Source of the DNA: Ruegeria atlantica
Lineage (GTDB): Bacteria > Pseudomonadota > Alphaproteobacteria > Rhodobacterales > Rhodobacteraceae
Assembly (NCBI GenBank): GCA_013032095.1
Contig: WQBJ01000018.1
Span: 1-64,000, forward strand
Direction of reading: 5' to 3'
DNA length: 64,000 bases
Shown: in pieces, positions 4,944 to 51,511 of the stretch
Position numbering within the stretch: the first letter of the stretch is position 1
Layout of the letters: each line of letters starts with the position of its first letter
Program-made: the position numbers and the translations under genes
The notes under the pieces: generated by a model
Told to the model about the DNA's origin: nothing
Database searches by the model: none
The model's input: the letters and a program-made list of their open reading frames with translations, nothing else

Positions 4944-5830
4944 TGCATCCGGCCCCTTCTGTCATCATCTTCACTACCTGTTCCGGGCTGGGCTTCGGCT
5001 TGCTGTTTTTCCTCGGGCTAGGCCAACCCGCAGTTACCGGCTTCGTCGCGTTCGTCTTCTACGTCATCGCCTATGCACTGGCAGTGGGCGGGCTGCTGGC
5101 CTCAACCTTCCACCTGGGTCACCCTGAACGTGCGTGGAAAGCATTCAGCCAATGGAAATCCAGCTGGCTTAGCCGTGAAGGAATATGTGCCGTTGCTGCG
5201 CTGATCGTCATGGCGCTGTACGCGTTGGGTGCAGTGTTCCTGCACAGCCACTGGACAGTATTGGGGTGGATCGGTGCGCTCCTCAGCCTAGCCACGGTGT
5301 TTACCACCTCGATGATCTATACCCAGCTCAAGACCGTCCCGCGTTGGAACATGAATCTGACACCAGCAATGTTTCTGTCATTCAGTCTGGCAGGCGGAGC
5401 GCTATTGGCCGGAGCTGAGGCTCTAGCGCCCTGGCTGCTGGCCATCGCAGGAGCAGTGCAGCTAGCCTATTGGGCCCAGGGAGACGGCGCCTTCGCCCGG
5501 GCTGGAACGACTCTGGGCAGTGCCACTGGATTGGGAGATCGGGGCAACGTCCGCGCGTTCGAGCCGCCGCACACCGGAACCAACTATCTGCTGCGCGAAT
5601 TCGTCCACGTGGTCGGGCGCAAACATGCGCAGAAACTGCGGGTAATTTCCCTTGGGCTTGCTTTTGCACTGCCTTTGCTGCTGATCCTGATCCCGGTCTC
5701 GGGCCTTGTGGTCAAACATATCTTTGCGCTGCTGGCCGTGCTGTCGCATCTGACCGGCGTCGTGGTGTCTCGTTGGCTGTTCTTCGCGCAGGCAGAACAC
5801 GTAGTCGGGCTGTACTACGGAAAACGTTAA
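4943..5830 (+). CDS. soeC: Sulfite dehydrogenase SoeC, DmsC/NrfD-like membrane anchor
   Basis: The 295-residue protein is strongly hydrophobic with about eight membrane spans, as in the DmsC/NrfD family that anchors molybdoenzymes and passes electrons to quinone. The conserved STFHLGHPERAWKAF segment after the second span is typical of DmsC-type anchors. It starts on the last base of soeB (TGATG overlap) and is the last gene of the operon; a hairpin follows. With SoeAB it would form a membrane-bound complex facing the cytoplasm that delivers sulfite electrons to the respiratory chain. Confidence 0.85.
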   Translation: MHPAPSVIIFTTCSGLGFGLLFFLGLGQPAVTGFVAFVFYVIAYALAVGGLLASTFHLGHPERAWKAFSQWKSSWLSREGICAVAALIVMALYALGAVFLHSHWTVLGWIGALLSLATVFTTSMIYTQLKTVPRWNMNLTPAMFLSFSLAGGALLAGAEALAPWLLAIAGAVQLAYWAQGDGAFARAGTTLGSATGLGDRGNVRAFEPPHTGTNYLLREFVHVVGRKHAQKLRVISLGLAFALPLLLILIPVSGLVVKHIFALLAVLSHLTGVVVSRWLFFAQAEHVVGLYYGKR

Positions 5831-5843
5831 GTCACAGCACAAA

Positions 5844-5878
5844 AAAGGGCGGCACTCTGAAACCAGAGCCCGCCCTTT
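5844..5878. terminator. Bidirectional terminator between soeC and dapA
   Basis: Bases 5844-5851 pair with 5871-5878, and an inner stem pairs 5855-5859 with 5864-5868. On the minus strand the stem is followed by six T residues (A run at 5841-5846), so it should terminate dapA well. On the plus strand the T tract is weak but the stem lies just after soeC. Confidence 0.75.
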
Positions 5879-5895
5879 GCTTCTTCAAAACGGCC

Positions 5896-6768
5896 TTATA
5901 TCAGGCCAGCGTGCGCCATTGCGGCGTCGATGGTAGCCTTGGTGCTGTTTTCCAGTCGCGTCAGAGGTGAGCGCACCTCTTCGCTGCACAGACCCAGCTT
6001 GCTGAGCGCGTATTTTGCACCAACCAATCCCGGTTCGATGAAAATCGCTTCGTGCAGCGGCATCAGGCGGTCCTGATATTCCAGCGCCTTGGCGTAGTCA
6101 CCATCCAGTGTCGCCTGCTGGAACTCGGCGCAGAGTTTTGGCGCCACGTTTGCGGTGACCGAGATGCAGCCCACGCCGCCATGCGCGTTGAAGCCCAACG
6201 CAGTGGCGTCCTCACCCGACAGTTGGCAGAACTCCGGCCCGCAGGTGGCGCGCTGCTGACTGACACGGGCCAGATCGCCGGTCGCATCCTTAACGCCAAC
6301 GATGCGCGGCAGCTTGGCCAGCTCACCCATCGTCTCCGGCGTCATGTCGATGACCGAGCGACCGGGGATGTTGTAGATGATGATCGGAATATCCGCGCAA
6401 TCATGCAGCGCGCGGAAATGCGTGATCAGACCCTTCTGGGTGGGCTTGTTGTAGTAGGGCGTCACGACCAACGCCGCGTCCGCACCGATCCGTTCAGCGA
6501 ATCGCACGAAGCGGATCGCTTCGACCGTGTTATTCGAGCCCGCACCGGCAATGACCGGCACACGACCCGCCGAGGCTTTGACTACCTCTTCCACGACCGT
6601 TTCATGCTCTTCATGGCTGAGCGTAGGGCTTTCACCAGTGGTACCTACGGGCACCAGCCCGGTCGAGCCTTCCTGAATCTGCCATTCCACCAAGTGTTTG
6701 AGCGTCTTCAGGTCCAACTCGCCGTTTGTGAACGGGGTGACGAGGGCTGGCATTGAGCCTTTGAACAT
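5896..6768 (-). CDS. dapA: 4-hydroxy-tetrahydrodipicolinate synthase
   Basis: This 290-residue TIM-barrel lyase condenses pyruvate with aspartate semialdehyde, the first committed step to diaminopimelate and lysine. The GTTGES motif supplies the paired threonines of the active site, YNIPGRS contains the catalytic tyrosine, and VGVKDATGD carries the lysine that forms the Schiff base. The length matches the family. It is transcribed divergently from the transglycosylase gene across about 130 bases. DapC, a later enzyme of the same pathway, lies at 38237-39418. Confidence 0.95.
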
Positions 6769-8866: not shown

Positions 8867-9709
8867 GGTGAACAGGCCCGCACTAACGACCAGAGCTGCG
8901 CCCAGAACCACCTCTGGTCGCAGCGCCTCGCCAAAGACGGAAATGCCGAGAATGGACGTCCAAACCAGGTGAAAATAGGCAAAGGGCTGCACCGCGCTGG
9001 CCTCCGCCATTTCATAGCATTTGATCAGCAGCCAATGACCCAGAACGCCGCTGACGCAGAGCAGCGCCATCCACGCCCAATCCGCGCGCGCCATCGGCTC
9101 CCAGAACCACATACCTACCAGCGTCATGGCCACGGCCCCGGCGACACCGGTCCAGAAAAAACTGGTGGCCGAGCTGTCTTCGCGGGCGACATAGCGGGTC
9201 AGCAATCCATAGACCGCAAACATCAGCGCAGAAATCAGCGGCAAGATGGCCCAAGGGTTAAACACGCCGACGCCCGGTTGCAGGATGATCAGCACCCCGA
9301 TGCATCCGACGCCGATCGCTATCCAGCGCCGCCAGCCGACCTGCTCTCCCAGAACCGGCCCGCTGAGCGCGGCCACAAGAAGTGGATAACAGATGAACAC
9401 CGCCATACTGTCGATCAGACCCAGTACCGTGAAGGCATAAACGGCGACGCAGATTTCGGCAGCAAGCAAGACGCCGCGAAACACCTGCAAACCCCATTGG
9501 CTGGTCTGTGTTGCGGCTTTCAAACCTCCGGGCGCTCTCGCGGCCAGTGCAATCACAAAGGCCGCGAAGAACCAATAGCGGATCATCACGACCATGTAGG
9601 TGTTGTAGGTTCCAGCCAGATGGCGCGAAATACCGTCCTGAAGGGCAAACACGATCGTCGCCGCGATCATCAGCGCGATACCCGCGCGCGAGTTGTTCTG
9701 CTGCGTCAT
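8840..9709 (-). CDS. DMT-superfamily transporter (EamA family)
   Basis: This 289-residue membrane protein has about ten hydrophobic segments arranged as two EamA repeats, typical of drug/metabolite transporters. The substrate cannot be read from sequence. The start ATG overlaps the stop of the upstream mnmD gene (ATGA), so the two genes form a transcription unit on the minus strand. The 3' end overlaps slt by 27 bases in convergent orientation. Confidence 0.85.
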   Translation of the reverse strand: MTQQNNSRAGIALMIAATIVFALQDGISRHLAGTYNTYMVVMIRYWFFAAFVIALAARAPGGLKAATQTSQWGLQVFRGVLLAAEICVAVYAFTVLGLIDSMAVFICYPLLVAALSGPVLGEQVGWRRWIAIGVGCIGVLIILQPGVGVFNPWAILPLISALMFAVYGLLTRYVAREDSSATSFFWTGVAGAVAMTLVGMWFWEPMARADWAWMALLCVSGVLGHWLLIKCYEMAEASAVQPFAYFHLVWTSILGISVFGEALRPEVVLGAALVVSAGLFTLWRERRQS

Positions 9710-10371
9710 TCCCGGATCGCCCGTGTCATATGGCGCTTGCGACCGTATCCGGGGGTGCGGGTGACTGTGAAGCCGGCCTCTTCCAACCCGCGCCGAACAA
9801 ACCCGGCGGCGGTATAGGTCGCCGCGGTACCGCCCTTGGCGGTGTGATCGGCCACGTGCTGCATCAGGTCAGCGCCCCACAATTCCGGGTTCTTTGCCGG
9901 AGAGAACCCGTCCAGAAACCACGCATCCGCCTCCTCCGTCCATGCAGGCAGCGTCTGGCGCGCATCGCCTTCGATCACCTCAAGATGCAGAGTACCCAGA
10001 TCGCACCTGCCGCCCTGCCAATTTGCCAAAAAACGTTCGCTCCACGGGGCAACCTCGGGAAATGCGGCCAGCGCACGGGACATATCGTCGAGAGCCATCG
10101 GAAAAGCTTCGAAGCTGGTGAAGGTCAAAGGCATGGTCTGGCCGGATTTTTCCCACTCGGACCAGACAGTCAGCATGTTCAGGCCGGTGCCGAACCCCAG
10201 CTCGGCAATACGAAACCCTGGCGCGAACCGTCCGGGTAGGTCATTGCCGGCAAGGAACACGTGCCGCGTTTCTTCCAACCCGTTTTGCAGCGAGTAATAG
10301 GGATCGTCGAAACGCTCCGAGACCGGGATCTGATCCTCGGTCCATGTCAATTTGGCGCGCTGGTCTGCCAT
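9706..10371 (-). CDS. mnmD: tRNA 5-methylaminomethyl-2-thiouridine methyltransferase domain protein
   Basis: The 221-residue protein matches the methyltransferase half of E. coli MnmC, here encoded alone. Visible motifs are the N-terminal DDPYYS segment, the S-adenosylmethionine-binding RIAELGFGTGLN, and WFLDGFSPAKNPELW. The enzyme makes the final methylation of mnm5s2U at the wobble position of several tRNAs. The FAD-dependent half of MnmC is encoded divergently by the next gene, 49 bases away, so the bifunctional enzyme is split here. Confidence 0.88.
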   Translation of the reverse strand: MADQRAKLTWTEDQIPVSERFDDPYYSLQNGLEETRHVFLAGNDLPGRFAPGFRIAELGFGTGLNMLTVWSEWEKSGQTMPLTFTSFEAFPMALDDMSRALAAFPEVAPWSERFLANWQGGRCDLGTLHLEVIEGDARQTLPAWTEEADAWFLDGFSPAKNPELWGADLMQHVADHTAKGGTAATYTAAGFVRRGLEEAGFTVTRTPGYGRKRHMTRAIRE

Positions 10372-39527: not shown

Positions 39528-40856
39528 TCAGGCCAATGCTGCCTCGGTCGCTGATCCCAGACGCAAAAGCACCTCTTCCGAGCCCGGAAAACCCATCATC
39601 ATCAGCCCGCAACCAGGGGTTCCCGTGGGCAGAGTCAGCGCGGCCAACCCCATCAGATTGCCGATCCGTGTGTTGCGCAGGGCCAGCAGGTTTTCGGTGA
39701 CATAGTAGTCGTGATCACTCATCAACCGCTCCAGATTCGGCGGCAAAATGGGGGCCGTAGGGGCCAGAACTGCGTCAAACCCCGAGGTGGCCGCATCCCA
39801 TGCGGCACGGCAAGCCTTCAGCTTGGACCATGCGGCAATGTAGTCGGGGCCAGAGTTGTTCTTTCCTGAACGGAACCGTTCCAGAATTTCGGGGTACATG
39901 GCATCCGGGTTGGCCTCGATGACGTCCCGCCAAAGACCATAGGCTTCGGTGGTGTAAAGCATACCCGACAGGCCCATCGCCTCGTTCAGTTCCGGCACTT
40001 CCAGTGGTACGATTTCGGCTCCAGCGTCCCGCAGGCGATCCAACGCATCGTCGAAGGCCTTACGTGGTGCATCGCGCAAATCGTCCTTGGCTACGTTCTG
40101 CAGATCAGCAAAGCGGCGCCCTTTCAGGCTGGCTCCGCGCAGATCAGCAGGGCTGCCGCCTTCCATCAGCGCCAGCAAATGGGCCGCATCTTCCACCGAA
40201 CGTGCCAGTGGGCCGGCGGTATCAAATCGCAAACACAAAGGCACAACCCCTTCCAGACTGACCCGGTCGGCGGTGGTCTTCAGCCCGACCAGATTGTTCC
40301 ATGCCGCCGGGATTCGCACCGACCCGCCCGTGTCCGAGCCGATCCCCCCGGCTGCCAATCCCCAAGCCACCGACGCCCCGGCGCCCGAGGATGAGCCACC
40401 GGGCACGGCCTCCTCATCGTCGACGCAGGGCGGCGTTCCGGTGATCGGGTTGAGGCCAAGGCCTGAAAAGGCAAGCTCGCTCATATGGGTCTTGCCCAAG
40501 CACACGGCACCCAGCGCGGTGGCGTTGCGCACAACGACCGCGTCCGCACCCGGCACCCGGTCTTTCAATAGCGCCGATCCAGCCTCGGTCGCGGTTCCTG
40601 CTGTGTCAAACAAGTCCTTCCAGCTGATCGGCACGCCATCCAGCAGCGACCGGCGTAGACCCAACTTGGCGCGCGCTTGCGCGGCTTGGGCCTCGGCTCT
40701 TGCACGGTCATGTGTGACGCGGGCATAGATGCGGTCACAATGGGGATGGGCGTCGATGGCGGTCAGATAGGTCTCGGTCAGCTCAACCGGGTCGATCCGC
40801 CCCATGCCGATGCCTCGCCCCAGATCACATGCCGTCATGGTCAGCCAATCCTGCAT
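39528..40856 (-). CDS. Amidase-signature family hydrolase
   Basis: The 442-residue protein belongs to the amidase signature family. The catalytic triad is visible: K80 in PISWKDLFDTAG, the cis-serine in PGGSSSGAGASV (residues 155-157), and the nucleophile S179 in DTGGSVRIPA. It hydrolyses an amide of unknown identity; GatA is excluded by lack of gatC/B context and by divergence. The frame is open to 41663, but I chose the ATG at 40856 with AGGGGG upstream, since the rest lies antisense to ubiH. Confidence 0.88.
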   Translation of the reverse strand: MQDWLTMTACDLGRGIGMGRIDPVELTETYLTAIDAHPHCDRIYARVTHDRARAEAQAAQARAKLGLRRSLLDGVPISWKDLFDTAGTATEAGSALLKDRVPGADAVVVRNATALGAVCLGKTHMSELAFSGLGLNPITGTPPCVDDEEAVPGGSSSGAGASVAWGLAAGGIGSDTGGSVRIPAAWNNLVGLKTTADRVSLEGVVPLCLRFDTAGPLARSVEDAAHLLALMEGGSPADLRGASLKGRRFADLQNVAKDDLRDAPRKAFDDALDRLRDAGAEIVPLEVPELNEAMGLSGMLYTTEAYGLWRDVIEANPDAMYPEILERFRSGKNNSGPDYIAAWSKLKACRAAWDAATSGFDAVLAPTAPILPPNLERLMSDHDYYVTENLLALRNTRIGNLMGLAALTLPTGTPGCGLMMMGFPGSEEVLLRLGSATEAALA

Positions 40857-40946
40857 CCCTGCCCCCTTCGAAAAACTGTGTTGTTCCGGACGGTAGCGAC
40901 AGGACCGCACATGGACAATCCCGTATCGGCACGCATATTGCGGGGC

Positions 40947-42173
40947 ATGGAACACAAGTCCGATATCCTGATCGTAGGCGGCGGCCTGAATGGCCCGGCT
41001 TTGGCATTGGCGCTGGCGCAGACGGGGCATTCTGTCACCGTAATCGACGCGCTGGCCGAGACGGTGCGCAAGAATGCCGCCTTTGACGGGCGTGCCTATG
41101 CGCTGGCGCTGGCCTCGCAGCGCTTGCTGGACGCGATTGGGGTGTGGGAGAAGGTTGCGGACAACGCCCAACCGATGCTGGAAATCAAGGTGACCGATGG
41201 GCATGCGGGTGCGGGACCATCCCCGTTTTTCATGCATTTCGACCATGCCGAGATCGAAGAAGGTCCGATGGGCTACATGGTTGAGGACCGCCACCTGCGC
41301 CGCGCCTTTCTTGACGCTATGGCTGAAGAAAAAGCCATTACCCAAATCAACGGTAAAACCGTTGTCGCACAGGAGGCCGACACGACCAGTGCAACCCTGA
41401 CACTGGATGATGGCAGCACCATCACAGGTGGTCTGCTGGTCGGTTGCGACGGACGCCGCAGCGGCACCGCCGCACGGGCTGGTATAAAGCGCAGCGGATG
41501 GGATTACGGACAAACTGCTCTGGTCTGCGCTATCGAGCACGAACTGCCGCATCACGGGGTGGCGCATCAGTTCTTCATGCCACCCGGCCCGCTGGCCATC
41601 CTGCCGCTCACCGGCAATCGCAGTTCGATTGTCTGGAGCGAACGGACCGAGACAGCCCGGCACATCAACGCCCTTTCAGAGGCTGACTATCTGCAGGTCC
41701 TGCGTCCCCGATTCGGAGACTTTCTGGGCGATATCCGCCTGCAGGGCGACCGGTTCACCTATCCGCTGAACCTGACTATCGCCAATTCCTTCATCGGCGA
41801 GCGCATGGCGCTGGTCGGAGACGCCGCCCACGGCATGCATCCCATCGCCGGGCAAGGACTGAACGCTGGTCTACGTGACGTCGGCGCACTGGCAGAAGTG
41901 CTGACACTGGCCGGACGGCGCGGCGAAGATATTGGCTCGATTCTGGTGCTTGAGCGCTATCAGGAATGGCGTCGCTTCGACACTGCCGCGCTAGCAATGG
42001 CAACGGATGTGTTCAACAAACTGTTTTCCAACGACAATCCTCTACTACGAATCGGTCGCGATATCGGGATGGGGGTCGTCGGCTCTCTCCCCGGCCTGCG
42101 TCGAGGTTTCGTGCGTGAGGCCGCCGGGTTGACCGGAGACCTACCAAAACTGCTGCAAGGCCGACCGATTTAG
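40947..42173 (+). CDS. UbiH/UbiF/VisC-type FAD-dependent hydroxylase
   Basis: This 408-residue flavoprotein monooxygenase has the Rossmann motif [18 protein letters not shown], the mid-region [13 protein letters not shown], and the FAD-ribityl motif [21 protein letters not shown], a signature of ubiquinone ring hydroxylases. It probably hydroxylates the quinone ring, though the ring position is not clear. The ATG at 40947 has GCGGGG close by; the frame extends upstream, but the family N-terminus begins here. It overlaps the convergent Trm112-like gene by four bases. Confidence 0.9.
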
Positions 42174-42355
42174 TCGAGCACCCGCGCCTCATCGACCAGC
42201 ATCACCGGAATACCATTGCGGATCGGGAAAGCCAGACCGGCCGACTTCGAAACCAATTCCTGCTTTTCGGCGTCATAGTGCAGCGTAGTATGCGTCTGCG
42301 GACAGATCAGCGCCTCAAGCATGTGGCGGTCGAAGGAATGTTCGGTTTCGGTCAT
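42170..42355 (-). CDS. Trm112-like small protein (UPF0434)
   Basis: This 61-residue protein has the [16 protein letters not shown] and [17 protein letters not shown] pattern of UPF0434/YcaR proteins, related to Trm112, a zinc-binding activator of methyltransferases. Only one of the zinc-type cysteines is present, so metal binding may be lost. Its start overlaps the stop of the Lon-N gene (ATGA), suggesting coupled translation. Confidence 0.85.
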
Positions 42356-42993
42356 TGGAGTTTTTCCTCGTTTGATCCGCCACGCATGGCGAATTCTATC
42401 AATGTCACCAACGTCTCGCGTCGGGTGCGCAGGCTGGGGGCCTCAAGCAGCGCCTGTTTCTCTTCAGGATCGAAATCCAGCAGCATCGACAATGAGTTCA
42501 CCAGCAACTCGTCATCCGCGTCTTTCAGTGTATCCCAATCGGTCGAAAGCTGGCGCGACGAAAAGAACCGCTCGAGCAGTCCAAGGAACGTGTTGCGGTC
42601 GAATGCATCGTCCACTTCGGCCTTGCCGAGATCACGATCAAACCCGTCCCACGACACGGCGCAGCGGCGGTAAGGAGTAAATGCGTCCAGTTCCGACCGA
42701 ACACGGAACCGCGAGATACCCGTCAGCGTGATCAGATAGCGGCCATCCTCGGTTTCCGAAAACTGCGTTACCCGCCCCGCGCAACCGATCTGGTGCAACT
42801 TACTGTCGTTGCTCTGGCAGGGGTTGGGCTGCACCATGCCAATCAAGCGTTCTTGCGTCTTCAGCGCGTCATCCAGCATTTGAAGATAACGCGGCTCGAA
42901 AATATGCAGCGGCAGGCGCGAGCGGGGCAGCAACAGCGCCCCGGGCAATGGAAAAACGGATACCGTTTCCGGCAGATCAGCGGGATGCATCAT
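42352..42993 (-). CDS. Stand-alone Lon N-terminal (substrate-binding) domain protein
   Basis: The 213-residue protein is a single Lon N-terminal domain: [30 protein letters not shown] at the N-terminus (read here in parts, [15 protein letters not shown] and [11 protein letters not shown]), followed by [20 protein letters not shown]. It lacks ATPase and protease domains, so it cannot degrade proteins alone. Its neighbours, CnoX and a Trm112-like protein, suggest a role in protein quality control. It overlaps the downstream gene in ATGA. Confidence 0.88.
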
Positions 42994-43020
42994 GTATCCG
43001 AGTGTAGCTCTGATCGGAAA

Positions 43021-43938
43021 TTAGGCAAATATCATCGAGCTAAGCTTGCGCCGCCCGTTCAGAACAATCGGATCATTGGGCTTGAGCGCATCGAAGATGG
43101 TGAACAGCTGAGTTTTGGCGGCACCGTCATTCCATTCACGGTCACGACGGAAAAGTTCCAGCAGTTGCGCCACGGCCTCTTCGACATCGCCATTGGCGTG
43201 CAGGGCCTGCGCCAGATCGAACCGGGCCTGATGGTTGCCGGGCTCAGCCTCAACCAATGCGGTCAGCTCGGCCACCGGGCCTGCATCTGCGGCCTGTTTT
43301 GCCAGCTCCAGTTGCGCATGGGCCGCCTCGACTTCCGCCGAAGTAGAAATCTCTGCCGGAGCACCGTTCAGGATCGCCTCGGCCTGCTCCAGATCACCAG
43401 CCGCGATATGGGCACGCACCAGACCACCATAGGCGGCGGCGTGGTTCGGGTCTTCTCCCAAAATGGCAGCAAAAGTCTGCGCCGCATCTGTGGCGGCTCC
43501 TTCGGTCAGCATTTCTTCGGCGGCCTGAACCGCATCATCCAATTGGCCACCGGGGCTTTCGCCACCCGCAGCCTCGATCACACGATCAACAAAGGCCTTG
43601 ATCTCAGACCCCGGCAAAGCGCCCTGAAACCCGTCGACCGGTTGGCCTTTGAAAAAGGCATAAACGGTCGGGATCGACTGAATACGCATCTGCGAGGCAA
43701 TCATCTGCGCCTCGTCTACGTTGATCTTGACCATCTTCACTGCGCCCTTGGCAGCGGTCACAGCCTCTTCCAGTGCGGGGCCCAGCGTTTTGCACGGACC
43801 ACACCAGGGTGCCCAGAAATCCACAATGATCGGGGTTTCCTGAGAAGCTTCGACCACATCGGCCATAAACGTGGCCTCAGATCCGTCCTTGATCAGATCG
43901 GTGGCCTCGGGGCTGGCTGCGGCGTTCAGAAGGTCCAT
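43021..43938 (-). CDS. cnoX: Thioredoxin-TPR chaperedoxin CnoX (YbbN)
   Basis: This 305-residue protein joins an N-terminal thioredoxin domain with the active site WCGPCK (C46 and C49) to TPR repeats. This layout is CnoX/YbbN, which protects substrates from oxidation and hands them to GroEL. E. coli CnoX lacks the CGPC motif, while alphaproteobacterial versions such as Caulobacter keep it and can act as reductases. It is the upstream member of a short minus-strand group with the Lon-N and Trm112-like genes, 27 bases from the former. Confidence 0.9.
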   Translation of the reverse strand: MDLLNAAASPEATDLIKDGSEATFMADVVEASQETPIIVDFWAPWCGPCKTLGPALEEAVTAAKGAVKMVKINVDEAQMIASQMRIQSIPTVYAFFKGQPVDGFQGALPGSEIKAFVDRVIEAAGGESPGGQLDDAVQAAEEMLTEGAATDAAQTFAAILGEDPNHAAAYGGLVRAHIAAGDLEQAEAILNGAPAEISTSAEVEAAHAQLELAKQAADAGPVAELTALVEAEPGNHQARFDLAQALHANGDVEEAVAQLLELFRRDREWNDGAAKTQLFTIFDALKPNDPIVLNGRRKLSSMIFA

Positions 43939-44014
43939 GGCATTTATTCTCCGGTTCGAACTTGCGCTCTATATGCAACCGCTTGGCTCAGAAACCAAGG
44001 GCAGAGTTACGTCT

Positions 44015-44803
44015 TCACAGGTCGAAACTGGCAAAAACGGGGGCGTGGTCGCTGGGTTTTTCCCACCCGCGCGCGTCGCGCAGGACGCGGCTGGAATGGC
44101 CCGCGTTCGAGATATCTGGCGTAGCCCAGACATGATCCAGACGCCGCCCTTTATCTGCCGCATCCCAATCACGCGCACGATAGGACCACCAGCTATAAAT
44201 CTGCCCCTCGGGGATATCCTTGCGAGTGATGTCGACCCAACCACCTGCATCCTGAGTTTCCGCCAGCGTTTCAACCTCGATCGGCGTGTGCGAGACCACC
44301 TTGAGCAGTTGCTTATGGGACCACACGTCATCCTCACGCGGCGCAATGTTCAAATCACCCACTAGAATGGATTTCTTGGGCTTTTCCGAGCGGAACCAAT
44401 CGCGCATCTCGGTGAGATAGTCCAGTTTCTGGCCGAATTTCTCGTTCACCTCACGATCCGGCACATCACCACCCGCGGGGACATAGAAGTTGTGGATCGT
44501 CACGCCGTTCTCCAGCCGCCCAGCGATATGGCGGGCGTGGCCGAGACTGGCGAAATCCTTGTCGCCCACCTCTTCCATCGGCAGGCGCGACAGGATGGCG
44601 ACACCGTTATAGCCCTTTTGCCCACGGGCAATCATGTGGGTGTAGCCCAGTTCGGCAAACCCTTCGGTCGGAATCTTTTCAACCGGGGACTTACACTCCT
44701 GCAAACACAGAACATCCGGCGCCTCTTCCCGCAGCAGTTTCAGCACGATAGGCTCGCGCAGGCGGACTGAGTTGATGTTCCAGGTGGCAATGGTGAAGGG
44801 CAT
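44015..44803 (-). CDS. xthA: Exodeoxyribonuclease III
   Basis: The 262-residue protein is an ExoIII-type AP endonuclease. The N-terminal FTIATWNINSVRLR contains the metal-binding Asn, LCLQECKSPVEKIP carries the catalytic Glu, and the C-terminal RLDHVWATPD and PSDHAPVFASF contain the catalytic His. It repairs abasic sites. I chose the ATG at 44803, since AGAGGA lies about ten bases upstream; a GTG at 44824 is a weaker alternative. It is 76 bases upstream of cnoX on the same strand. Confidence 0.93.
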   Translation of the reverse strand: MPFTIATWNINSVRLREPIVLKLLREEAPDVLCLQECKSPVEKIPTEGFAELGYTHMIARGQKGYNGVAILSRLPMEEVGDKDFASLGHARHIAGRLENGVTIHNFYVPAGGDVPDREVNEKFGQKLDYLTEMRDWFRSEKPKKSILVGDLNIAPREDDVWSHKQLLKVVSHTPIEVETLAETQDAGGWVDITRKDIPEGQIYSWWSYRARDWDAADKGRRLDHVWATPDISNAGHSSRVLRDARGWEKPSDHAPVFASFDL

Positions 44804-44982
44804 GGGGCGGATTTCCTCTGTCACGGTTGGCGCAGGTTAGCGTGGTAGGGGATGGGGTACCATCGGAAAAACCTTGCTGCGCCACATATCGGGTTGAATA
44901 GACCGAGCGCGTTATCGACCAAGGAATCCTTTACAAGAAACATATATCCAATACTCTGAATTTGTGAATTTTCGATAGTAAA

Positions 44983-44990
44983 GGGGGGGG
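44983..44990 (+). promoter_or_regulatory. Eight-G tract forming the ribosome-binding site of the exported ureohydrolase
   Basis: An uninterrupted run of eight G residues is the only Shine-Dalgarno-like sequence before the GTG at 44997, with a six-base spacer. Homopolymer length changes here would alter spacing and hence translation. Confidence 0.6.
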
Positions 44991-44996
44991 CCACCA

Positions 44997-46262
44997 GTGA
45001 AGCCATTAACATCGAAGTTAGTTTTTTCTGCGTGGATTTGCTTGTGCTCTCCACCTGCCTTTGCGCAGTATTTCGGACACGAATACGAAGGCACTCAAGC
45101 TCCGATCCGGGAGGGCGAACAACCCGTGATCCCGCTTGATACGGAAGATCCGACCTACAACGCGTGGCGCACCCCGTTGCCAAGCTTTGACGGCGCCGAG
45201 CGGGCGGATGGACCGATCGATCTGCAACGGTTCTATGGTCAGGGCTTCATGCAGATACCAACGTTTCTGCACCAACCGATTGCTTTAACGCCGGCAGACC
45301 TTGCCGCAGGTGAGGTCGATGTTGCCATCATGGGCGCCTTTACGGATATGGGCGGCGGAATGCGCGGTGCGTCTCATGGTCCAAACGCGGTCAGGGCATC
45401 GTCGATGTATTTGGGGTATGGTGCGCGGCAACCGCACATGCACGTGATGGTAGACCCGCTTCAGGACATGACCGTTGTCGATTATGGCAATGCCCCTAAC
45501 GATATGCTGAGCACCGAACGCACCATCCACGCGGTTCGGTCCTTTGTTCGGCAGGCCGCCGAGGTCCAGCATGAAGATGGCACCCGTGTCATTCCGTTTA
45601 TCGTCGGCGGCGACCATTCTCTGATGTATGCGGATGTTGCTGCTCTTGTCGATGTGTACGGCAAGGGGAATGTGGGCGTGGTCCATTTCGACGCGCATTA
45701 TGATGCTGGCAAATACGGGCTTGGCCACCTGATCAACCACGGTATGCCCGTTTATCGCCTGATCGAGGAAGGGCTGGTTCCTGGCAAGAACTTCATTCAG
45801 GTTGCATTGCGCGGCTATTATCCGGACGAACGCGCGTTTGAATGGATGCGTGAGAACGGATTTCGGTATCACACAATGGCCGAGATCGAAGATCGCGGTT
45901 GGGACGCCGTGATGGAAGATGCCATTGCCGAGGCGAAGGATGGCCCGGAATACATTTTCGTATCATTCGACATCGACACACTGGACCCTGCTTTTGTGCC
46001 CGGCACAGGAACGCCGGAACCCGGAGGACTGATGCCGCGTGAGGCATTTCACATCCTGCGGCGTCTTTGTGCCGAAACCAACCTGGTTGGATTCGAACTC
46101 GTTGAGCTGTCACCGCACATGGACCCAACATATGTTTCAGCATTGAACGCCAATCGATTGCTGAGAGAGTGCCTGACCGGTGTAGCCATGAACAAGCTGG
46201 GTATCACCGAGCCAGACTACCGGAGCCCTTTGACTGTTACCCATGGGCAGAACGACAATTAA
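44997..46262 (+). CDS. Exported ureohydrolase (arginase/agmatinase family)
   Basis: This 421-residue protein has a Sec signal peptide (basic MKPLTSK, hydrophobic core, cleavage after AFA near residue 23) followed by an arginase-fold domain. The manganese ligands are all present: H207 in GGDHS, D232, H234 and D236 in HFDAHYD, and D325 and D327 in FDIDTLDP. The ureohydrolase core is preceded by an N-terminal extension of about 80 residues after the signal. Known arginases and agmatinases are mostly cytoplasmic, so an exported one is unusual. The substrate could be agmatine, a guanidino acid or guanidine; none is proven. It overlaps the DUF3299 gene by 20 bases. Confidence 0.85.
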   Translation: MKPLTSKLVFSAWICLCSPPAFAQYFGHEYEGTQAPIREGEQPVIPLDTEDPTYNAWRTPLPSFDGAERADGPIDLQRFYGQGFMQIPTFLHQPIALTPADLAAGEVDVAIMGAFTDMGGGMRGASHGPNAVRASSMYLGYGARQPHMHVMVDPLQDMTVVDYGNAPNDMLSTERTIHAVRSFVRQAAEVQHEDGTRVIPFIVGGDHSLMYADVAALVDVYGKGNVGVVHFDAHYDAGKYGLGHLINHGMPVYRLIEEGLVPGKNFIQVALRGYYPDERAFEWMRENGFRYHTMAEIEDRGWDAVMEDAIAEAKDGPEYIFVSFDIDTLDPAFVPGTGTPEPGGLMPREAFHILRRLCAETNLVGFELVELSPHMDPTYVSALNANRLLRECLTGVAMNKLGITEPDYRSPLTVTHGQNDN

Positions 46263-46785
46263 GCTTCGGATTGTATCGGCTGTATCGGTTGCATTACTCG
46301 GCTCGGGTTCCTTGGCTGAACCTCTCCGCGTGTCATGGGGTGACCTTCGGAAAGAGCGACCTCAGGAATGCTCTGAACTGCTCGCGAATTATCTCTCGAA
46401 CGCGAATTGCACAGGTACAAATGTGTCGGACCGTATGCTCTCAATGCAACTTGCTGAGTGTACGCCGGGCAACGCAAAGCTGGATGGCAATGTGATCCGC
46501 ATTGCAGGCTATGCCCACCCGGTAGAGTTTGAGTTTAGGAACGTGAAGCGCTTCCTTCTTGTTCCACCGATGCGTAAGGAGTGCCGCCATCCCCTTCCAC
46601 CTCTACCAGATCAGGTTATCGTGGTGGAATATCCTGAAGGCCTTGATATTGATGCTGATCCGGTTTGGATCACAGGCCGTCTGCAAATTCGGCCAAGTGG
46701 AAACGATATTGCGCCTTCAGCCTATCGGATCAATGCCACAAAAGTTGCAACCGCAACCATTCCAGATATTTCAGCCCCAGAGTAA
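46243..46785 (+). CDS. Secreted DUF3299-family protein
   Basis: The 180-residue protein starts with a signal peptide (IVSAVSVALLGSGSLAE) and matches the DUF3299 pattern: IRIAGYAHPVEFEF, then VKRFLLVPPMRKECRHPLPP and QVIVVEYPEG with PVWITGRL. The family has no known function; the Cys-His pair at CRHP suggests metal binding. The start lies within the last 20 bases of the ureohydrolase gene, so the two are translationally coupled and probably act in the same compartment. Confidence 0.78.
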   Translation: MGRTTIKLRIVSAVSVALLGSGSLAEPLRVSWGDLRKERPQECSELLANYLSNANCTGTNVSDRMLSMQLAECTPGNAKLDGNVIRIAGYAHPVEFEFRNVKRFLLVPPMRKECRHPLPPLPDQVIVVEYPEGLDIDADPVWITGRLQIRPSGNDIAPSAYRINATKVATATIPDISAPE

Positions 46786-46830
46786 TCCACTTGGCCTGGC
46801 CGGATTTGGATCAGCAGGTCAAGGCACCGT

Positions 46831-46859
46831 GCAAAAAAAGGCCGGGCCAAAGGCCCGGC
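46831..46859. terminator. Bidirectional terminator between the DUF3299 gene and cenR
   Basis: Bases 46841-46848 pair perfectly with 46852-46859 around an AAA loop. Seven A residues at 46833-46839 give a T run on the minus strand, which terminates the response-regulator transcript. On the plus strand it lies 55 bases after the DUF3299 stop. Confidence 0.78.
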
Positions 46860-46963
46860 AGTCCAACAGGGAGGTGCATGTCATAACCCGGACATGCGCG
46901 GGTTGGGAGTAATCTAATTACACATCCAGAGTATCACTTTGATCCACGTCAATCCACAACGAG

Positions 46964-47650
46964 TTAAGAGACCAGACGATATCCGCCCGATTCTGTGACC
47001 AAAAGGCGCGCATTCGACGGGTCGGGCTCGATCTTCTGGCGCAGACGATAGATGTGGGTCTCCAGCGTGTGGGTGGTGACGCCAGCGTTATAGCCCCAGA
47101 CCTCGTGCAGCAGAACATCGCGGGCAACTACACCATCGGTCGAACGGTACAGGAACTTGAGAATGTTGGTTTCTTTCTCGGTCAGCCGGATTTTGCGATC
47201 CTCTTCGGTGATCAGCATCTTCATTGCGGGTTTGAAGGTGTACGGCCCCAGGACAAAGACAGCATCCTCGGATTGTTCGTGCTGACGCAGCTGCGCGCGA
47301 ATGCGGGCCAGAAGAACCGGAAACTTGAAAGGTTTGGAGACATAGTCGTTGGCCCCAGCGTCCAGACCCAAGATTGTATCTGCATCGCTGTCATGGCCGG
47401 TCAGCATGAGAATCGGGCTTTTGACGCCTTGTTTGCGCATCAGGCGGCACAGTTCTCGCCCATCGGTATCCGGCAGGCCGACGTCCAGAATGACCAGATC
47501 ATAGATCGCTTCGCGCGCGCGCTCCATCGCTGACTGACCGTCATGAGCTTCGAACACGTCGAAATCCTCGGTCATCACAAGTTGTTCGCTGAGCGCCTCG
47601 CGCAGGTCTTCGTCGTCATCCACCAGCAGGATTTTCTTGAGCTGAGCCAT
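46964..47650 (-). CDS. cenR: OmpR-family response regulator, CenR-like
   Basis: This 228-residue protein has a receiver domain with acidic pocket VDDDEDLREAL, phospho-acceptor D56 in LVILDVGLPD, and KPF in the fourth loop, then a winged-helix effector domain with HTLETHIYRLRQKIEPD. It resembles CenR, an essential envelope regulator in Rhodobacter and Caulobacter. The partner CenK histidine kinase is not adjacent. The ATG at 47650 has AGGAGG upstream, so it is preferred over the longer open frame from 47698. Confidence 0.85.
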   Translation of the reverse strand: MAQLKKILLVDDDEDLREALSEQLVMTEDFDVFEAHDGQSAMERAREAIYDLVILDVGLPDTDGRELCRLMRKQGVKSPILMLTGHDSDADTILGLDAGANDYVSKPFKFPVLLARIRAQLRQHEQSEDAVFVLGPYTFKPAMKMLITEEDRKIRLTEKETNILKFLYRSTDGVVARDVLLHEVWGYNAGVTTHTLETHIYRLRQKIEPDPSNARLLVTESGGYRLVS

Positions 47651-47746
47651 GTCCGGTCCTCCTAAGCCTTTTCCACCACTTGCGGGCGGAAGATGCAATC
47701 AACAAGGTTTACTGCAGTCGTTTCACGCCCTCGTGTCTGAGGCGGA

Positions 47747-47765
47747 GGAAATGTTTCACATTTCC
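47747..47765. repeat. Inverted repeat upstream of ribA
   Basis: GGAAATG at 47747-47753 and CATTTCC at 47759-47765 form a perfect seven-bp palindrome with a five-base spacer, 48 bases before the ribA start. It could be an operator or a weak hairpin. Confidence 0.4.
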
Positions 47766-47812
47766 GTCTGATCAGGCTAGGAGAAGGGCCAAATCGTTAC
47801 AGGTTAGAACAG

Positions 47813-48907
47813 ATGAGTCTCGTCCCGGATGTATCAGAATTGCTTGCTCGGGCCCGTGCGGATTTGCGCATGGGGGTACCGGTAGCCCTGACCGATGACA
47901 GCGGTTTCAGCGTCCTGGCCGTCGCGACAGAAACGCTGAGCGCGCAACGTCTTGCAGATTTGCGTGGGCTAGGCGGCGAGCCCGTTGTGGCCATCACCGG
48001 ACGTCGGGCTGAAACGTTGAAGGCGCGTGCCTATGATGGCGATTTGGCGCGGGTAATTATCCCTGCAGATGTGGATATCGCGTGGGTTCAGGCGGTGGCA
48101 GATCCCTCGGACGACCTGAACGCGCCGATGAAAGGCCCCCTGATGACTGAACGCCAGGGCAACGCCAACCTGCACCGTATTGCCATTGCCCTGACCAAGT
48201 CAGCACGCCTGCTGCCTGCAGCGGTTGTTGTGCCCATTGAGGACGGTCGCGATTTTGCAGTGACACATGGCCTGACATGCATCGATCACACCCGCGCGGC
48301 CCCGCATCTGGCTGATCGCAGTGAACTGCACGAAGTTGTTGCGGCCCGTTTGCCAATGGAAGTGTCCGAAGCCGGACGACTCCATGTGTTCCGACCCGAG
48401 GACGGTGGCGAAGAGCATTACGCCGTCGAAATCGGTCGCCCCGATCGGGACAAGCCAGTCTTGGCGCGCCTGCACTCGGCCTGTTTCACAGGTGACCTAA
48501 TGGGTAGTCTGAAATGCGACTGCGGCCCCCAATTGCGCGGCGCGCTGGCGCAGATGGGCTCAGAAGGGGCCGGAATTCTGCTGTACCTGAATCAGGAGGG
48601 GCGCGGAATCGGTCTGGCCAACAAGATGCGGGCCTATTTTCTGCAGGATCAGGGCTTTGACACGGTCGAGGCCAATCACCGACTGGGGTTCGAGGATGAC
48701 GAGCGCGATTTCCGGCTTGGCTCGGACATTCTGAAATCTCTGGGTTTCAGCTCGGTACGGTTGCTCACTAACAACCCTGCGAAAATCGCGATGATGGAGA
48801 ATACCGGTATCGCCGTCACTGAGCGCGTCCCTCTGAAAGTTGGCGAAACTGCTCATAACCAGGGGTATCTGGCAACCAAGGCGGCCAAATCAGGGCATCT
48901 GCTGTGA
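47813..48907 (+). CDS. ribA: GTP cyclohydrolase II
   Basis: The 364-residue protein has an N-terminal RibB-like region (about residues 1-190) with degenerate sequence, and a C-terminal GTP cyclohydrolase II domain. Zinc ligands are C224, C235 and C237 in HSACFTGDLMGSLKCDCG, and YLNQEGRGIGLANKMRAY is the GTP-binding motif. It opens the riboflavin pathway. The 3,4-dihydroxybutanone phosphate synthase activity is probably lost in the N-terminal half. The stop overlaps the start of the transpeptidase gene. Confidence 0.9.
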   Translation: MSLVPDVSELLARARADLRMGVPVALTDDSGFSVLAVATETLSAQRLADLRGLGGEPVVAITGRRAETLKARAYDGDLARVIIPADVDIAWVQAVADPSDDLNAPMKGPLMTERQGNANLHRIAIALTKSARLLPAAVVVPIEDGRDFAVTHGLTCIDHTRAAPHLADRSELHEVVAARLPMEVSEAGRLHVFRPEDGGEEHYAVEIGRPDRDKPVLARLHSACFTGDLMGSLKCDCGPQLRGALAQMGSEGAGILLYLNQEGRGIGLANKMRAYFLQDQGFDTVEANHRLGFEDDERDFRLGSDILKSLGFSSVRLLTNNPAKIAMMENTGIAVTERVPLKVGETAHNQGYLATKAAKSGHLL

Positions 48908-49404
48908 CGCCTGATGATCTGGTACTGACCCCGCGCGGAGTGCGGTTCGCTGGGCGGGTCTTTCCCTGTTCGATCGGCAAAGGCGGGCTGAGCAACACCA
49001 AGCGCGAAGGGGATGGGGCCACACCGACAGGCAAACATCACATCGTCGGGATGCTGTATCGGCCGGACAGAATTACAAAACCTGCCGAATGGGCGATTCC
49101 CATCGGCCCTCGCGATCTATGGTCAGATGATGGCGGGGACAGCCGCTATAACACCCTCGTCAGCGCGCCTTACAGTTTCAGCCATGAAAAACTGCGTCGC
49201 GCCGATCCTTTATATGATCTGGTGCTGATCACCGACTGGAACTGGCCCGATGCGGTGCCAGGTCACGGGTCGGCAATTTTCATCCACCAATGGCGGCGGC
49301 CCGGCCATCCGACCGAGGGTTGCATTGCCTTCCGCCGCGATCACCTGCGATGGATCGCGGAAAAGGTCTCCTTGGGCACGCGTCTTATTATTCCTCAGGC
49401 TTAA
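48904..49404 (+). CDS. L,D-transpeptidase (YkuD) family protein
   Basis: The 166-residue protein is a YkuD-domain protein. The catalytic motif is HQWRRPGHPTEGCIAF with the nucleophile C140. It has no signal peptide, unlike most L,D-transpeptidases, so its location and role are unclear; it may act in the cytoplasm or be secreted by another route. The GTG start overlaps the ribA stop. It converges with yggS and overlaps it by 17 bases. Confidence 0.85.
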   Translation: MTPDDLVLTPRGVRFAGRVFPCSIGKGGLSNTKREGDGATPTGKHHIVGMLYRPDRITKPAEWAIPIGPRDLWSDDGGDSRYNTLVSAPYSFSHEKLRRADPLYDLVLITDWNWPDAVPGHGSAIFIHQWRRPGHPTEGCIAFRRDHLRWIAEKVSLGTRLIIPQA

Positions 49405-50047
49405 CGCGCGCACCAAATATGGCGGAACCCACGCGCACATGGGTGGCCCCCAAGGCGATGGCTTGCTCAAAGTCCCCACTCATCCCCATAGAAAGACCAA
49501 CCAGTCCGTTGCGCTCTGCAATCTTCGCCAGCAGAGCGAAATGCAGTGAGGGCTCTTCTTCAACCGGCGGGATGCACATCAGGCCCTGAACCGGCAGGTC
49601 CAGGTCCCGACACTCTGCAATGAAGGCATCGGCCTCTGCGGGCAGGATACCGGCCTTCTGGTCTTCCTCACCGGTATTGACCTGAATGAACAGGACCGGA
49701 CATGTGCCCATTTCCTGCGCCAGCCGCGCCAGTGTCTTAGCCAGTTTGGGCCGGTCGACCGAATGGATTGTGCTGAACAACTCGATCGCCTGTCTGGCCT
49801 TGTTGGTTTGCAGCGGGCCAATCAAGTGAAGATCGATATCTGAGAACTGCTCCATAAAGTTTGGCCATTTTCCGACAGCTTCCTGAACCCGGTTTTCACC
49901 GAAACACCGATGGCCCTGCTCCAGAACGGCCTGAACGCGTTCATTCGGCTGCACCTTGGAAACGGCGATCAGTTTAACTGACCCGGCAGGTTGCCCAGCA
50001 GCGGTTTCAGCTTTGGTGATGCGGGCAGTGATATCTTGCAGCGACAT
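49388..50047 (-). CDS. yggS: YggS/PROSC-family PLP-homeostasis protein
   Basis: This 219-residue protein is a single-domain alanine-racemase-like barrel that binds PLP. K31 in LIAVSKVQPNE is the PLP lysine, HRCFGENRVQEA follows, and LSMGMSGDFEQAIALGATHV is the phosphate-binding C-terminal motif. Members control PLP and amino-acid homeostasis. The ATG at 50047 has GAGGAA upstream. Confidence 0.92.
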   Translation of the reverse strand: MSLQDITARITKAETAAGQPAGSVKLIAVSKVQPNERVQAVLEQGHRCFGENRVQEAVGKWPNFMEQFSDIDLHLIGPLQTNKARQAIELFSTIHSVDRPKLAKTLARLAQEMGTCPVLFIQVNTGEEDQKAGILPAEADAFIAECRDLDLPVQGLMCIPPVEEEPSLHFALLAKIAERNGLVGLSMGMSGDFEQAIALGATHVRVGSAIFGARVKPEE

Positions 50048-50101
50048 AGGGTTCCTCAATCTGCTTTGACCGCAGAGAAACACCAAGTAGGCACAAAAGA
50101 A

Positions 50102-50127
50102 AAGGGCAGGTCCGAAGACCTGCCCTT
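50102..50127 (-). terminator. Intrinsic terminator of the porin gene
   Basis: Bases 50102-50112 pair perfectly with 50117-50127 around a CGAA tetraloop, 24 bases past the porin stop on the minus strand. A T-rich tract follows on that strand (complement of 50090-50101). Confidence 0.85.
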
Positions 50128-50150
50128 AAACCTTGCGGTTTCAGATCAAC

Positions 50151-51230
50151 TTAGAAGTTGAACTGAGCACCGAAGTCAGCTTGGATGCGGCTGTCGCAAA
50201 CGCTGCAGTCGTTCTGGCCGATACCACCGCGCAGCGATGCACCGCCGCCCAGGTCGTAGATGGCACCGATTGCGATCTGCTGGGTGTCAGCGTCGGCCGA
50301 ACCGTCACCGTAGGCGAACAGCAGGGTGGTTGCGGCGCCCACGTTGTAGGAAGCCGACAGACCCCATGCGGTGCCGTCAGTTGCATCAACTTCGGTGTTA
50401 TCGTCTGCAACAAACAGCGTACCGCCGAAGTCACCCCATTCGCCGCCCAGGGTCAGAACGGTCAGGCTCGGCTTGTCGCCGTCCGCGTCAGTTTGACCAT
50501 AGGCCAGAGCCGCAGTGATGTTGTTGAAGGTGTAAGTCGCGCTTACGTCCCAACGGTCTGCACTGTCGGTTTCAGCAGTGAAGATCGGAACATCGGCGCC
50601 ATTGGCAGTAATCGTACGCGTTACTGGGTCCTGCTGGTCATACGATGCGCCGAAGGCAAAATCGCCAACTGCGTACTGGAAGAACACAGCGTTCGCGCCC
50701 GGGTTGCTGCCCGAAACATAGCTCAGGAAGCTGTAGTCAACGCCCGAGTACTGACCTGCGAACAGTTCCAGACCAACTTCGTTACCGTAGTAGTTGGCGA
50801 GGTTGTCGAACGAACCGGCGACGTTGCCGGCGTCAACACGCAGACCACCGTAGATGACCGAGAAGCGCGCGCCGTTCAGCTGGGCGTTGTTGGCTTCGCC
50901 GGTTGCCGAGTTTTCGTCGGCTTGCAGACGAACACGGCCTTCAAAGCGAACGCCGCCATCGGTTTCAGTGAAACCGTCGATGTTCAGACGGAAGCGCGAT
51001 ACCAGGATGGTGTCGGTGCCTTCGACGGCTGCAGTAACTGTTGGATCAGTAACAACGGCACCACCAGCGGTGGTGAATGTACCTTCGATCACTGTGGTGG
51101 TGGAGAAGCTACGATCTTCCAGATAACCAACACCAAAACGGCCGTAACCGCTGAAGTTAACGCCGGACTCGGCCGCTGCAACACCTGCGGTTGCGATCAG
51201 AGCGGTCGATGCGAAGAGAACTTTTTTCAT
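50151..51230 (-). CDS. Rhodobacter-type outer-membrane porin
   Basis: This 359-residue protein has a signal peptide (MKKVLFASTALIATAGVAAA), an N-terminal strand VNFSGYGRFGVGY, many alternating strands and a C-terminal FGAQFNF that ends in phenylalanine, the outer-membrane sorting signal. It is probably a major general porin; the strong terminator and the very regular codon use fit high expression. A tandem repeat sits in its upstream region (51266-51289). Confidence 0.92.
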   Translation of the reverse strand: MKKVLFASTALIATAGVAAAESGVNFSGYGRFGVGYLEDRSFSTTTVIEGTFTTAGGAVVTDPTVTAAVEGTDTILVSRFRLNIDGFTETDGGVRFEGRVRLQADENSATGEANNAQLNGARFSVIYGGLRVDAGNVAGSFDNLANYYGNEVGLELFAGQYSGVDYSFLSYVSGSNPGANAVFFQYAVGDFAFGASYDQQDPVTRTITANGADVPIFTAETDSADRWDVSATYTFNNITAALAYGQTDADGDKPSLTVLTLGGEWGDFGGTLFVADDNTEVDATDGTAWGLSASYNVGAATTLLFAYGDGSADADTQQIAIGAIYDLGGGASLRGGIGQNDCSVCDSRIQADFGAQFNF

Positions 51231-51265
51231 CTTGTTTCCCTCGGTTTCAAAGTTTTTCTACTCGA

Positions 51266-51289
51266 CACATGCCTCAGCACATGTCTCAG
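51266..51289. repeat. Tandem 12-bp repeat upstream of the porin gene
   Basis: CACATGCCTCAG (51266-51277) and CACATGTCTCAG (51278-51289) are adjacent and differ in one base. They lie 36-59 bases before the porin ATG. The spacing of about one helical turn suits a dimeric regulator or a 5' UTR element. No confident sigma-70 promoter could be picked out in this 281-base gap. Confidence 0.55.
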
Positions 51290-51511
51290 CACGGGAACCG
51301 TTTCGCTCTTTTTGCCCCCGACACGCAAGCTTGGCATAAATGATTTGACCGCATTGACCGGAAATTGGTGCAAGGATGCCACAGTCTGTTTTCATGGCCT
51401 AAGCGGCCCCATGCCCACCCTTATGTGACAATAATAGGGTTGTTGCTGAACAGGTCCTTGTCTAGGAGTATCCCTGACAACGTAGACCAAAGTGAACAGG
51501 ACCAGTCGATA

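Follow-up and report, generated by a model that had tools for sequence, protein, structure and literature searches.

A predicted exported branch of the ureohydrolase superfamily and its DUF3299 partner gene in Ruegeria atlantica

Members of the ureohydrolase superfamily are normally cytoplasmic. A gene of Ruegeria atlantica that encodes an arginase-fold protein with a signal-like N-terminus raises the questions of whether such an enzyme is exported, what it would hydrolyze, and how it would acquire its metal ions outside the cytoplasm. The gene is located in a 64,000-nucleotide stretch of contig WQBJ01000018.1 (assembly GCA_013032095.1), which is referred to here as the window (Table 1).

Table 1 Positions of the features of the enzyme gene, its partner gene, and the insertion that carries them, in window coordinates
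Feature	Position	Strand	Details and basis
Predicted exported arginase-fold (ureohydrolase) CDS	44997..46262	+	421 aa, GTG start, TAA end
Predicted signal peptide, residues 1–23	44997..45065	+	rule-based; cut placed after AFA
Mature N-terminal extension, residues 24–84	45066..45248	+	precedes ureohydrolase homology region
Ureohydrolase homology region, residues 85–396	45249..46184	+	domain match, profile and fold comparison
Metal ligand H207	45615..45617	+	alignment
Metal ligands D232, H234, D236 (motif DAHYD)	45690..45704	+	alignment
H248	45738..45740	+	alignment
Metal ligands D325, D327	45969..45977	+	alignment
E370	46104..46106	+	alignment
DUF3299 CDS (PF11736), signal-sequence-like N-terminus	46243..46785	+	180 aa; domain and profile match
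Two-gene insertion, ~1.96 kb	44872..46833	.	exact empty site in L165 (same genus)

The purine-rich stretch AAAGGGGGGGG is located a short distance upstream of the start codon of the gene. Residues 108–393 of the protein match the family PF00491 (Arginase) with a score of 239.1 bits (E 8.4e-71; cut-off 22). Among 36 aligned proteins of the family, the window protein included, no variation is seen at the six metal ligands or at H248 and E370. H248 and E370 occupy the positions of the catalytic His141 and Glu277 of arginase. The AlphaFold model of the enzyme has a mean pLDDT of 86.1, with low confidence in two stretches of the active-site loops. All the 50 matches listed in each fold comparison of the model are ureohydrolases, and those with solved structures have Z-scores of 31 to 39. 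Metformin hydrolase and guanidinases are tied as the closest folds among the matches listed (Z 39.3 to 39.0), with metformin hydrolase 8ryi at the top (Z 39.3, rmsd 2.5, 325 aligned residues). The PF00491 domain, the six Asp and His ligands of a binuclear metal center, and the modelled fold identify the protein as a member of the ureohydrolase superfamily. Five NCBIfam models match the protein, each with a score under its cut-off, and these include the agmatinase models TIGR01230 (144.5 versus 174.3 bits) and NF002564 (175.4 versus 302), the arginase model TIGR01229 (112.2 versus 227.6 bits), and the formimidoylglutamase model TIGR01227 (135.8 versus 229.15 bits).

The comparison of the enzyme gene with L054, a homolog from another Ruegeria, gives a dN of 0.013, a dS of 0.65, and a ratio of 0.02 over 346 codons; this is the sole pair with a dS below 1, and the frame of L054 is broken upstream of the compared part. 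In other pairs, dS is 1.7 or more, or saturated, and the ratios that could be computed range from 0.04 to 0.10. Purifying selection and the complete active site together support the prediction that the enzyme is catalytically competent. L054 (positions 4965–6266) is the closest relative, with 95% identity, and the break near its start reflects either recent decay or an assembly fault.

The N-terminus of the enzyme, MKPLTSKLVFSAWICLCSPPAFA followed by Q, has a net charge of +2 and a hydrophobic core (mean KD 2.42 across 10 residues). It contains an AFA cut site and is devoid of a twin arginine. Signals were called with a simple custom rule, which looks for a charged start and a hydrophobic core, and not with SignalP. 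According to this rule, the main reading frames of 73 of the best 80 of 243 relatives have a signal-like N-terminus, a count that excludes the second reading frames in L088, L090, and L132 and in which the broken-frame L114 is represented by its first piece. The rule misses seven loci: L076 and L117, which are truncated at the contig end; the broken-frame L054, whose signal is found in an upstream frame; and the actinobacterial members L115, L118, L121, and L126. The rule fired in one of the 27 control loci from a search of 198 genomes of the bacterial family (L017, an upstream frame extension) and in one of eight own-genome paralogs outside the C196 pair described below (L001, a TTG beside the domain), in both cases because of the choice of start. 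The own-genome paralog L011 is not flagged, though its N-terminus resembles a weak signal. Only eight of 77 signal rows have a twin arginine close to the start; therefore, Sec is the likely route. The signal is judged to be real mainly because it is kept in 73 of 80 divergent relatives, and the export of the window enzyme is thus well supported by sequence evidence. The preliminary description had claimed an arginase-fold reading frame with all six metal ligands and a Sec signal peptide, and both claims hold, together with its overall reading as far as export and a complete active site are concerned; the hydrolysis of a guanidino compound, which it had also put forward, keeps the standing of a proposal. 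The four signal-less actinobacterial proteins may be usable as a natural cytosolic reference within the exported branch. In a subgroup of the Woeseia and Kordiimonas type (L094–L112, L132), a further segment of approximately 60 residues separates the signal from the enzyme.

Among the 198 genomes of the bacterial family, close relatives of the enzyme (61–77% identity) are encoded only by G073, which has two copies, G057, and the R. atlantica genome itself, in which PF00491 has 11 matches. The 243 relatives were obtained by scanning 84,980 species, with one genome each, using an alignment of four orthologs, and the best 80 of them belong to Pseudomonadota (66), Actinomycetota (4), Myxococcota (3), Thermodesulfobacteriota (3), and Acidobacteriota (2), with two unplaced. 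With respect to a viral origin, the 26 pattern matches in viral contigs include no relatives.

A maximum-likelihood tree of 48 rows is divided by a branch with support of 100/99 into an exported side of 36 rows, which comprises the exported family, the actinobacterial relatives, and two C196 paralogs, and another side of 12 rows, which comprises GdmH, the Nitrospira guanidinase, GbuA, GpuA, PAH (proclavaminate amidinohydrolase), and homologues; a program warning about the joining of long branches applies to this tree. In an earlier quick tree, the deepest split has a support of only 57, the exported side includes L009, and the C196 pair joins the family at 63; that tree contained six very long own-genome rows (L001_no, L003_no_b, L004, L006, L007, L009), which are absent from the 48-row tree. 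The input of 116 rows was reduced to 49, and five reference segments were added. Broken or truncated sequences (L054, L076, L114, L117), L030, the second reading frames of L089, L090, and L132, repeat gene copies, and rows at least 80% identical to a kept one are absent from both trees. The exported ureohydrolases appear to form a distinct branch of the superfamily, which is separated with support of 100/99 in one tree and weakly in the other with the very long rows. Among the titles listed in searches of the open-access literature for ureohydrolases, agmatinases, and arginases that are exported, secreted, or located in the periplasm, none refers to a bacterial exported ureohydrolase. A paper on Streptomyces vesicles names agmatinase six times and may bear on exported ureohydrolases (PMC4476819).

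The R. atlantica genome encodes two further ureohydrolases of the exported type at locus L042 (G000 contig C196, 5392–6684 on the minus strand and 8907–10181 on the plus strand). Two AraC-type regulators are located between them. One of the two ureohydrolase genes is followed by a PPIC-type isomerase and a HupE/UreJ gene, and the other has a cation diffusion facilitator as a neighbor.

The window enzyme is probably a Sec-exported binuclear-metal amidinohydrolase that is metallated after export and acts on a small guanidino or amidino compound. Its chain would pass the inner membrane unfolded and be cut after A23, and its folding and the uptake of two metal ions would occur in the periplasm. 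An external small guanidino or amidino compound would be hydrolyzed there, most likely with the release of urea and an amine, and these products would then be taken up. The hydrolysis of an external guanidino compound would provide urea for uptake; since the genome encodes a urease, urea could be used once it has entered the cell. No urea transporter or urease gene was recognized beside the enzyme gene on reading the list of window reading frames.

It is also conceivable, with a minor share of the probability, that the enzyme is exported and cleaves an amidine, a formimino compound, or another C–N bond without releasing urea. The superfamily contains formimidoylglutamase, and metformin hydrolase yields guanylurea and dimethylamine (PMC11399263). 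The loop of GbuA that includes Arg72 caps the active site of the neighboring subunit (PMC9772407); the aligned stretch in the window enzyme, from its substrate-loop region, is longer than those of GdmH, GbuA, and GpuA, and contains a PHMxxMVDP-like motif that is common in the exported branch. Gene neighborhoods provide an additional argument. They were compared between 84 regions of the exported family, namely the loci of the best 80 relatives, L042, L049, L050, and the window, some of the stretches being cut short, and 26 control regions around other ureohydrolases. The controls are not independent samples because they come from one bacterial family and the own genome and share synteny. Amidohydrolase-like genes are present in nine of the 84 regions versus none of the 26 controls, and in L055 and L057 such a gene is located upstream of the enzyme gene on the same strand. 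Against a reaction without urea, E370 is invariant, and its arginase counterpart binds guanidinium. Furthermore, most characterized members of the superfamily release urea (PMC9772407).

The top structural match, metformin hydrolase (MfmAB, MefH; 8snf, 8ryi), is a heteromer with a degenerate subunit and is accompanied by HypA/HypB genes (PMC11399263), whereas the window enzyme has a complete site and is predicted to be exported. A degenerate second subunit was sought among the C196 paralogs and the tandem partner in L088, and all of them keep the six ligands; further tandem partners, in L089, L090, and L132, are partial. The metformin hydrolase genes are followed by a HupE homologue (PMC11399263). 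A HupE-type gene is thus shared by the metformin operon and seven of the 84 exported-family regions, but is not located beside the window gene.

A Sec substrate that acquires its fold outside the cytoplasm should be out of reach for cytosolic chaperones of the HypA/HypB type. The nickel chaperones of this type that activate GdmH and metformin hydrolase (PMC11399263) could not act on the enzyme if it is exported, which gives a reason to look at the neighboring DUF3299 gene, although it is no proof of a role. The DUF3299 gene is the next gene downstream and overlaps the end of the enzyme gene by 20 nucleotides. Its product matches PF11736 with 70 bits (cut-off 22). Among solved structures, only 4hsp (PA4066) matches it in sequence (profile E 5.4e-29), and in a Foldseek comparison with 4hsp the model of the partner (pLDDT 73) gives an E of 1e-10 and TM-scores of 0.56 and 0.66. 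C114 and H116, which form a C-x-H motif, Q124, and other residues are invariant in 15 aligned DUF3299 members.

The partner belongs to the same DUF3299 family as ZrgE and PA4066 of the zinc-starvation operons ZrgABCDE and PA4063–PA4066. In Vibrio parahaemolyticus, the zrg operon, which is under Zur regulation, codes for the DUF3299 protein ZrgE (PMC9817125), and PA4063–PA4066 of Pseudomonas are zinc-regulated (PMC11481552, PMC8561739). In the Zrg operon, DUF3299 stands beside ZrgA, an ABC ATPase, and a permease; by contrast, no ZrgA-, ZrgB-, or ZrgC-like genes are present at positions 40001–51300 of the window. Within the 84 regions, a ZrgA-like gene is found in none, and a ZrgB-like permease in two (L072, L090). 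PMC11481552 and PMC8561739 describe PA4066 as a periplasmic protein without evident Zn binding. This weakens the metal-chaperone role of DUF3299, and the notion of a plain zinc-binding chaperone was toned down on the basis of PMC11481552.

DUF3299 occurs in 22 of the 84 family regions, including the window, versus none of the 26 controls, and it was not found in the available stretches of the other 62. Seventeen of these 22 regions belong to one alphaproteobacterial group (roseobacter/Roseibium). DUF3299 also directly follows the enzyme gene, with the same orientation, in L068 (Filomicrobium), L088 (Desulfobacterales), and L091 (Arenicellales), and it lies a few kilobases from the enzyme gene in L050 and L093, which represent one paralog in two genomes. 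By sequence, the enzyme gene is co-inherited with its DUF3299 partner.

DUF3299 is uncommon in the class, where only 22 of 142 genomes encode it. From its 24 matches outside the own genome, eight weak ones (E above 1e-10) were excluded, and the 16 strong ones were examined together with the three other own-genome copies. These 19 loci contain a ZrgB-like permease in 12 cases, a ZrgA-like gene in 10, an amidohydrolase-like gene in four, and a FUR-type regulator in three, where the names of the neighbors rest on Pfam for one example each. An amidohydrolase with a signal-like start is located upstream of DUF3299 in the same direction in L178 and L170. DUF3299 may serve several exported hydrolases. 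Two of the other own-genome copies (L170, L169) have no ureohydrolase as a neighbor and are accompanied by genes for amidohydrolases with a signal and for outer-membrane-like proteins.

HupE/UreJ, which occurs in none of the 26 controls, is accompanied by a PPIC-type isomerase in six of its seven exported-family regions (L042, L080, L089, L090, L094, L111), of which L089 and L090 are near-duplicates; HupE/UreJ is present alone in L072, and the isomerase alone in L087. A cation diffusion facilitator is encoded in four of the 84 regions versus none of the controls. The counts of DUF3299, HupE/UreJ, the cation diffusion facilitator, and other neighbors point to metal supply, with the reservation that the controls are not independent. 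ABC ATPase neighbors are useless as a marker, because the query matches 20 of the 26 controls. Sodium:solute symporters, found in eight of the 84 regions, resemble shared synteny of Woeseia-type genomes. An outer-membrane-like protein (approximately 280 residues if complete) recurs in six of the 84 regions (L050, L093, L077, L082, L084, L088) and in none of the controls; its copy in L077 has no Pfam match and its copy in L093 has no NCBIfam match.

In a weaker step of the proposed mechanism, the DUF3299 partner would help the enzyme to get or keep the right metal in the periplasm. In its broadest form, this proposal states that the exported branch would gain its periplasmic metal center through a zinc-regulon, OB-fold-like DUF3299 protein acting as a general accessory of exported metal-dependent hydrolases, both ureohydrolases and amidohydrolases, which at present seems rather unlikely.

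The two genes are carried by an insertion located between an exonuclease-III-like gene and a response-regulator gene. The corresponding place was inspected in two of the genomes of the genus in which the left flank matches. In L165 (G205), it is a clean empty site, where the match to the left flank stops at window position 44871 and that to the right flank resumes at 46834, with three bases between them. L166 (G199), from the same genus, has an unrelated stretch with a reading frame at this place, which therefore takes varied cargo. L054 shares the occupied place with the window. DNA comparison of 13 genomes of the genus, including the own genome, detected a long match to the gene pair only in G209, where it is positioned elsewhere, whereas the left flank matches in all 12 other genomes. 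The GC content of the two genes is 0.548 versus 0.588 for the window, and the DUF3299 gene has a dN/dS of 0.10 at a dS of 1.78. The insertion at a place of changing content would suit a passenger pair without a functional link, a reading that concerns the partner only and is compatible with an exported enzyme. Such a chance pairing is improbable, given the overlap of the two genes in the window and the directly downstream position of DUF3299 in L068, L088, and L091.

The guanidine hydrolase GdmH is cytoplasmic. It is activated by nickel chaperones, whereas the window enzyme has a predicted signal peptide and is positioned on a separate branch. The best sequence match in the PDB is nevertheless the Synechocystis guanidine hydrolase 7esr (E 1.9e-45). 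GdmH (7esr, 7oi1) and the Nitrospira inopinata guanidinase (9fek) share with the window enzyme the fold, the six ligands, and an N-terminal extension, and their extensions are of similar size, as the profile matches start at residue 63 of 392 in 7esr and 71 of 384 in 9fek. The preliminary description had listed the long extension as a difference from plain agmatinases; this is correct for the short ones, but not a distinction from guanidine hydrolases. It had also named guanidine hydrolases for comparison, and the outcome separates the window enzyme from them: 7esr, 9fek, and the homologue L015 have the residues HFDRH, GTGW, and GGWQ in common, where the window enzyme has HFDAH, GTGT, and RGYY, with the signature (DRH, GTGW, GGWQ) derived from those three sequences only. 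GdmH lies across the 100/99 branch of the 48-row tree, and the window enzyme is apart from 7esr and 9fek in the quick tree too, where the deepest split was weak. Membership in the GdmH type was rejected on the grounds of the signature residues and the tree, and an exported guanidine hydrolase that converts free guanidine to urea and ammonia is very improbable. GbuA (3nio) and GpuA (3nip) share with the window enzyme the fold, the ligands, and the DAH and GTGTPE motifs. By contrast, they have short N-termini, with matches from residue 17 of 319 and 326, respectively, and shorter substrate loops, and the window enzyme does not group with them in the 48-row tree. The preliminary description mentions neither the DUF3299 gene that overlaps the enzyme gene nor the wide distribution of exported relatives.

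An ordinary cytoplasmic agmatinase or guanidinobutyrase, with 23 residues that merely resemble a signal or with a start further downstream, would agree with the usual location of the superfamily and with the four signal-less actinobacterial relatives, but is scarcely credible in view of the signal-like N-termini in 73 of 80 loci despite sequence divergence, the signal-like start of the DUF3299 partner, and the agmatinase, arginase, and formimidoylglutamase models that all score under their cut-offs.

If the enzyme is exported as predicted, guanidino nitrogen would be broken down outside the cytoplasm, and compounds could be used without an uptake system of their own. Exported enzymes pose a metallation problem, because the known nickel ureohydrolases rely on cytosolic chaperones. 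The recurrent partner gene offers a testable handle on this metallation and on the DUF3299 family, for which a structure has been solved. If the proposed involvement of the partner is true, it would represent a post-export maturation route for ureohydrolases and the first role for DUF3299.
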